Shown here: in pieces, positions 53,444 to 53,857 of the stretch
Position numbering within the stretch: the stretch's first letter is position 1
Layout: each line of letters begins with the position of its first letter
From: Alphaproteobacteria bacterium
GTDB taxonomy: Bacteria > Pseudomonadota > Alphaproteobacteria > DSM-16000 > Inquilinaceae
Direction of reading: 5' to 3'
DNA: 64,000 nucleotides
Assembly (NCBI GenBank): GCA_028281265.1
Contig: JANQKE010000131.1
Coordinates: 1-64,000 of the forward strand
Notes under the pieces: model-generated
The model's input: the letters and a program-made list of their open reading frames with translations, nothing else
Databases searched by the model: none
Told to the model about the DNA's origin: nothing
Position numbers and translations under genes: made by a program

Positions 53444-53470
53444 AAGGGGCCGCGGAGACCGCGACCCCTT
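53444..53470 (-). terminator. Strand-specific terminator of the 25-codon gene
   Basis: Read on the minus strand, AAGGGGTCGCGG pairs with CCGCGGCCCCTT over a TCT loop, giving a 12-bp stem that includes one U-G pair. On the plus strand the same position is a C-A mismatch, so the structure is better for minus-strand RNA. It lies about 55 bases after the small gene's stop; the bases after it (TGGTCGTT) are moderately T-rich. Confidence 0.65.
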
Positions 53471-53525
53471 CTTCGAGATCGGAAAACGGAACCGGTCTCG
53501 ACGTGTCCGGCCTTGGCAGATGCCG

Positions 53526-53603
53526 TCAGCGCGCGCAGCGCGCCTCGGAGGCTCCGACCAGACCGCACGGACCCGTGCCGCTCCCAATGATCTCGTCAGA
53601 CAT
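53526..53603 (-). CDS. Hidden 25-residue peptide gene with an ideal ribosome-binding site
   Basis: This short frame begins MSDEIIGSGTGPCG and has Cys at residues 13 and 23, ending in Arg. It is too short for normal gene finding. Three things support it: a 14-base perfect anti-16S Shine-Dalgarno placed one base before the ATG (53605-53618), a proper stop, and a hairpin terminator that works better on this strand (53444-53470). I do not recognise the peptide. It might be a regulatory leader, a small membrane-free protein or a modified-peptide precursor, but no modifying enzyme is nearby. The gene lies between the MipA-like gene and murJ. Confidence 0.6.
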   Translation of the reverse strand: MSDEIIGSGTGPCGLVGASEARCAR

Positions 53604-53604
53604 C

Positions 53605-53618
53605 GGATCACCTCCTTT
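53605..53618 (-). promoter_or_regulatory. Full-length Shine-Dalgarno sequence
   Basis: AAAGGAGGTGATCC on the minus strand is complementary over all 14 bases to the 3' end of 16S rRNA, much longer than the 4-7 bases seen before other genes here. GGAGG is 8 bases from the ATG, the optimal distance. Confidence 0.7.
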
Positions 53619-53754
53619 CCGTTGTTGCCAGGGACCGGCACGCTGCCATGGGGTGCTCCGGCGGTAAAGCGGATTCTCGCCCGTCCGAACGGCCTCGCCC
53701 GGGCCGCGCCGACAAGGGGCCTACAATTCGCCGGACGGCGGCCGCCAACAGCGG

Positions 53755-53857
53755 CTAGATCAACCTGCACTCAGATGGACTCATCCGAGCGCGGGTACGG
53801 TGATCGACCTCAAAGAGTGAGAACATCCTGCCTCCGTTCGGACACAGGATGTTCTAG
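53755..53857 (+). repeat. CTAG-bounded two-hairpin repeat, full copy
   Basis: It starts CTAGATCAACCTGCACTC and ends CAGGATGTTCTAG, 103 bases in all. Hairpin 1 is CCTGCACTC with GAGCGCGGG. The linker is CGGTGATCGACCTCAAAGAG. Hairpin 2 is GAACATCCTG with CAGGATGTTC. Against the copy at 22845-22947 the outer pair of hairpin 2 changes from G-C to A-T on both sides, keeping the pairing. It ends 43 bases before the murJ ATG. Confidence 0.85.

Follow-up and report, generated by a model that had tools for sequence, protein, structure and literature searches.

In a 64,000-nucleotide stretch of an alphaproteobacterial contig (hereafter the window), the intergenic space between mipA and murJ holds a minus-strand reading frame of 25 codons, preceded by a Shine-Dalgarno (SD) sequence that matches the 3′ end of 16S rRNA over 14 bases. 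A critical issue is what such a site serves: the peptide, the control of a neighbouring gene, or the RNA itself. A sequence-only reading had described the frame, the site and a hairpin behind it, and had taken the site to imply very strong translation of a tiny product. Our analysis leads us to think it probable that the locus is a small mRNA with an extended SD – of the rreB/rreR type of alphaproteobacteria – and to propose that the ribosome-bound RNA, and not the peptide, is the functional entity.

Anatomy of the minus-strand small gene

Read along the minus strand, the leader element CAACAACGG (53619-53627) immediately precedes the full-length SD AAAGGAGGTGATCC (53618-53605), behind which come a single G and the ATG (53603-53601). 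AAAGGAGGTGATCC is reverse-complementary to the 3′ end of 16S rRNA, which in family members L180-L182 reads GGATCACCTCCTTTCT; the 4.33 Mb assembly contains no 16S copy, and the comparison uses the 16S of family members. On that footing – family 16S standing in for the assembly's own – the G preceding the 14-mer extends the duplex to 15 contiguous Watson-Crick pairs (GAAAGGAGGTGATCC:GGATCACCTCCTTTC), and the base beyond these may form a G-U wobble. The ORF (53603-53526) ends in TGA and encodes MSDEIIGSGTGPCGLVGASEARCAR, a product with two Cys. In the predicted fold the SD core is mostly open, unlike that of the nearest relative, locus L168, where it is buried. The sequence-only reading had placed both the site and the frame correctly.

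Such complementarity to 16S invites the suspicion that the 14-mer is a chance match or a piece of an rRNA gene. Base composition (window GC 67.9%) gives an expectation of 0.012 perfect 14-mers per genome, and of 0.0003 once an ATG one to three bases behind is included; AAAGGAGGTGATCC is the sole match with at most one mismatch in the assembly. The low expectation with the ATG in place, together with the conserved counterparts in relatives that carry both an ORF and a terminator, leaves coincidence or remnant status with next to no credibility. A 16S remnant is in fact refuted: homology to 16S does not extend past the edges of the 14-mer, and a search of the window against Rfam gave no rRNA.

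About 55 nt behind the ORF stop begins a terminator-like hairpin, AAGGGGTCGCGG-TCT-CCGCGGCCCCTT (53470-53444). As had been noticed from the letters, it pairs better as minus-strand RNA: its fold energy is -27.2 kcal/mol on the minus strand versus -20.4 kcal/mol on the plus, the asymmetry being that of a U-G pair versus C-A. The hairpin aligns with a canonical terminator in L168, which has CCCCTTTTT at the place where the window has a poor U-tract (UUUGGUCGUU); the 3′ block and the U-tract of the window are degenerate, and a consensus terminator scan did not call the hairpin. Upstream of the small gene a sigma-70 consensus scan found no match; a possible, weak -35 element (CTTTAC, 53664-53669, minus strand) recurs at approximately the same distance in L168. 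From these features we predict that the small gene is its own transcription unit, equipped with a terminator and independent of its neighbours, the promoter being weakly indicated. A self-contained minus-strand gene with an exceptional ribosome site and a terminator of its own, as first proposed, stands up to this scrutiny.

Comparison with relatives points in the same direction. The murJ neighbourhood in 16 family genomes and in 80 named loci contained no counterpart of the element, and in those relatives that possess the element it is located elsewhere than murJ. The conserved mipA/murJ neighbourhood that had been envisaged was not found: the element shifts relative to murJ and is therefore an independent unit. 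A leader peptide or attenuator for the downstream mipA (52347 to about 53261) would sit as the small gene does, on the same strand and with the hairpin between ORF and mipA. We nonetheless hold such a role to be very unlikely: the units of relatives adjoin genes that are unrelated from one relative to the next and often convergent, with no linkage emerging; the ORF has no run of a single amino acid; and no alternative antiterminator was seen. Like attenuator leader peptides of the peTrpL type (PMC7298713), the unit in the window has a short ORF with a terminator-like hairpin behind it; unlike them it stands alone, with neither a regulated operon downstream nor a codon run.

On the other side of the small gene, between it and murJ (ATG 53901), the murJ leader contains a perfect inverted repeat (AGAACATCCTG...CAGGATGTTCT, 53820-53855), which is present in a single copy in the genome and may be an operator or a hairpin.

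Counterparts across the alphaproteobacteria

In L168, CAACAACGGAAAGGAGGTGATCC is identical to the window, the leader element included. Behind it stands a 26-codon ORF, MSSEMSRIRTRLCGFVAALGQPLAQR – the positional counterpart of the window ORF, with CGxV common to the two peptides – and then CCGATCTCACGGAAAGGGGCCCCGCGGGGCCCCTTTTT, where the window reads CCGATCTCGAAGAAGGGGTCGCGGTCTCCGCGGCCCCTTT. Sought by way of the RNA site and not of the peptide, the frame is conserved in the nearest relative, and the lack of conservation that the sequence-only reading had named as its refutation is not observed.

More widely, 43 of 385 alphaproteobacterial genomes contain the pattern AAAGGAGGTGATCN(1-4)ATG, and none contains the reversed-pattern control. 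Reading of 30 pattern loci revealed, in 28, an ORF of 20-56 aa (mostly 20-32) commonly starting MS[SNHD]; a CAAC element before the SD is common to the pattern loci, as is a terminator 40-100 nt behind the stop. CAAC or AAC is found in nearly all members of the class, whose ORFs, mostly of 14-36 codons, lie directly behind the SD. Profile R1, which represents the 5′ 45 nt of the element, matched the window at E 1e-9, the window being one of its 22 training sequences; it also matched nine of the 16 other family members, with E values of about 1e-10 to 1e-9, the eight untrained relatives L168-L175 among them at about 1e-10. In a sample of the phylum, R1 at E≤1e-3 matched 38 of 63 alphaproteobacteria versus 3 of 136 other proteobacteria, two of these three being ordinary sites before 2-oxoacid oxidoreductase-like genes (identified by eye); roughly 40% of the sampled alphaproteobacteria gave no match to the profile. 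Among the named members are Parvibaculum, Skermanella, Azospirillum, Rhodopila and strain BAL199.

A gammaproteobacterial version of the site, TAAGGAGGTGATC, which suits a 16S that ends in UUA, was found in 4 of 274 genomes, of which at most a few are member-like. Behind TAAGGAGGTGATC in the non-alphaproteobacterial loci L262 (genome G408) and L264 (genome G886) are ORFs of 18 and 22 codons, and L262 additionally has a CAAC element and a terminator; the two are possible rare members outside the alphaproteobacteria. A larger protein may also be found with the same ribosome site: in L135, L226 and L229 (Skermanella, Azospirillum and another genome) a signal-peptide-like ORF of 56-59 aa (MSHGA..VVAALFG..) sits behind a perfect or near-perfect copy of it.

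Elements of this kind have a published counterpart. Hahn and colleagues reportedly described rreB and rreR ('ribosome-regulated expression') as small mRNAs with an extended SD, rreB belonging to the Bradyrhizobiaceae and rreR to the Rhodobacter/Roseobacter lineage, with related sites said to occur in Caulobacterales, Rhizobiales, Rhodobacterales and Rhodospirillales. Our screen brought up two sets of ORFs that start with GTG: one family (L202, L206) has an ORF of 14 codons, VSYLKRCHLAGIAR, and another (L201, L207, L210, L211, L220, L221, L235-L261) has ORFs of 18 codons. We take these sizes to be those of rreB and rreR respectively; in the 18-codon set a conserved anti-SD block precedes the terminator. 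The window element, to judge from its sequence, fits as a further member of this class. It resembles rreB and rreR in being a putative stand-alone small mRNA with an SD that matches most or all of the 16S tail, a very short ORF and a terminator; it differs in having ATG rather than GTG, 25 codons, a different peptide, and 15 Watson-Crick pairs plus a possible G-U where those RNAs have 17 nt. It differs further from the rreR-like RNAs in that its 3′ part is without their conserved anti-SD block. In the screen of Hahn and colleagues the threshold for an extended SD was reportedly at least 16 nt, and the 15 Watson-Crick pairs of the window fall one short. The earlier verdict of no recognisable family is correct as regards Pfam, NCBIfam and Rfam, none of which gave a match for the window peptide or RNA, but the published rreB/rreR class appears to accommodate the element. 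That work is reference 65 of PMC7298713 (Hahn et al. 2017, RNA Biol 14:1353-1363).

Constraint on the peptide and on the RNA

The view that the peptide is the functional product – a signal, the precursor of a modified peptide or a small stress protein, highly translated from a strong site – can draw on a frame that is open and of constant length within genera, on the two Cys, and on the recurrence of CGxV in the nearest relative. Against it, a tblastn search with the 25 residues in the window's own genome and 96 related genomes returned nothing beyond fortuitous matches that lie in longer or unrelated frames, and family models likewise found no homologue. Codon differences over 16 groups comprised 103 synonymous versus 354 nonsynonymous; in the set of 29 rreR-like 18-codon ORFs, the three codon positions had 2219/2553/2372 differences, with a synonymous fraction of 0.193 versus 0.203 expected from independent columns. 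Substitutions are equal over the three codon positions, and the peptide is therefore not visibly selected. In genus g3 of the family the third position is mildly over-represented among the differences (21/24/41), a point in favour of the peptide, and constraint is therefore possible in some lineages.

Neither a conserved core nor linked maturation or export genes of the sort that accompany a modified or signalling peptide were found, and no receptor genes adjoin the unit. The very strong translation that had been deduced from the site also fares poorly: translation of the rreB mRNA is reported to be weak. An SD that is too long inhibits translation, and IF3 discriminates against such SDs (PMC4611024). 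The hormone, modified peptide or stress miniprotein suggested by the sequence-only reading is at odds with the missing homologue and with the equal drift at three codon positions, and we consider a functional peptide unlikely. What is kept is an open frame of fixed length. Judged by its peptide and synteny alone, the small gene would resemble an orphan; the conserved features are the site, the CAAC leader, the terminator and a long-range helix, and not the peptide.

The helix joins codons 3-5 to a block directly before the terminator stem: in the window CGAGATC (ORF nt 9-15, 53589-53595) pairs with GATCTCG (53474-53480, both minus strand), and in L168 GTGAGAT pairs with ATCTCAC. The pair at ORF nt 9 is U-A in L168 versus C-G in the window, a compensatory change in which the 3′ arm makes good the altered codon 3. 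The same helix is found in L148 (ATGAGATT:AATCTCAT), in L162 (GTGATT:AATCAC), in L195 (CATGAAT:ATTCATG) and in VSHC-type members (CATTGTC:GACAATG and CATTGTT:AACAATG), its arms covarying across families. With one row per family and the purine tract behind each 3′ block as anchor (the registers of the window and L195 being set by hand), 80 of 85 cells were paired, versus 59.3 ± 3.3 with blocks swapped (0/10000). Against a control of shuffled 3′ blocks the signal peaked at codons 3-6 (mean z -1.18 ± 0.20), the window itself reaching z -2.0 to -2.7. Plain arm-swapping without a composition control was dropped as misleading: the control arm scored too, and the shuffled-arm and anchored tests were therefore used in its place.

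Pairing of the pre-terminator block with the SD itself was a further candidate; its signal was weak on the whole (mean z -1.0, and p 0.16 for the window), and it was replaced by the pairing with codons 3-5. Internal anti-SD sequences are nonetheless a feature of several relatives. A [C/T]CTCC block (CTAACCGACCCCACCTCC and similar) lies 49-76 nt behind the stop in 28 of 29 rreR-like RNAs, L163 has an isolated strong anti-SD mimic, GGATCACCTCC, and in L199 the mimic CACCTTCCT matches a variant SD, AAGGAAGGTG. L168, too, has a strong counterpart. The corresponding CCTCC of the window (53547-53551, minus strand) is a possible but weak internal anti-SD, its duplex with the SD being no better than shuffles (p 0.16).

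A proposed ribosome-bound RNA

How might such an RNA work? The transcript, predicted to be about 190 nt long, would consist of a ribosome site that pairs with the whole single-stranded 16S tail, the 25-codon ORF and the terminator. A 30S subunit would be expected to dock tightly at this site and to clear it slowly, and a ribosome entering the ORF would open the long-range helix, so that the folding of the RNA, its lifetime and its occupancy by ribosomes would depend on one another. In relatives with an internal anti-SD the ribosome would compete with it. The rreB mRNA reportedly co-sediments with 30S subunits, and conversion of its start codon to a stop reportedly stabilises it. We propose that the ribosome-bound RNA would act by sensing or titrating free 30S subunits or the anti-SD.

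A related possibility is that the extended SD gates translation on the state of the ribosome – subunits without bS21, for example, or with an exposed anti-SD – and that the ORF or the RNA reports that state. Complementarity to essentially the whole 16S tail, kept across the class, would suit a reader of this kind. We know of no tiny ORF or closing helix in the flavobacterial rpsU mRNA, which offers the precedent. The likeness lies in an unusually extended SD and in regulation by ribosome state, rpsU being translated efficiently only by ribosomes that lack bS21; the difference is that rpsU encodes a ribosomal protein, bS21 itself, and belongs to another phylum (PMC10931766). The unit in the window is without a downstream ribosomal gene, and we regard gating by ribosome state as rather unlikely, although it overlaps with the explanation that we favour and differs from it in the trigger.

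Returning to the ribosome-bound RNA, a broader proposal can be made, albeit tentatively, and we consider it possible but short of probable: that the class constitutes an alphaproteobacteria-wide riboregulator, in which a passing ribosome opens the conserved helix and the RNA gauges or buffers the pool of free 30S subunits, the ORF being disposable and the sequence of the peptide irrelevant. For the class, the helix may be a new feature, and so may the lack of constraint on the peptide. Although about 60% of the sampled complete alphaproteobacterial genomes (38/63) have a member, neither Rfam nor the protein family libraries contain the class. The present comparison adds to it a closing helix that covaries, an anti-SD block inside the RNAs of one lineage, and evidence for an ORF that is kept in length but not in peptide. 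Why cells retain an mRNA whose ribosome site is too strong can now be tested directly.
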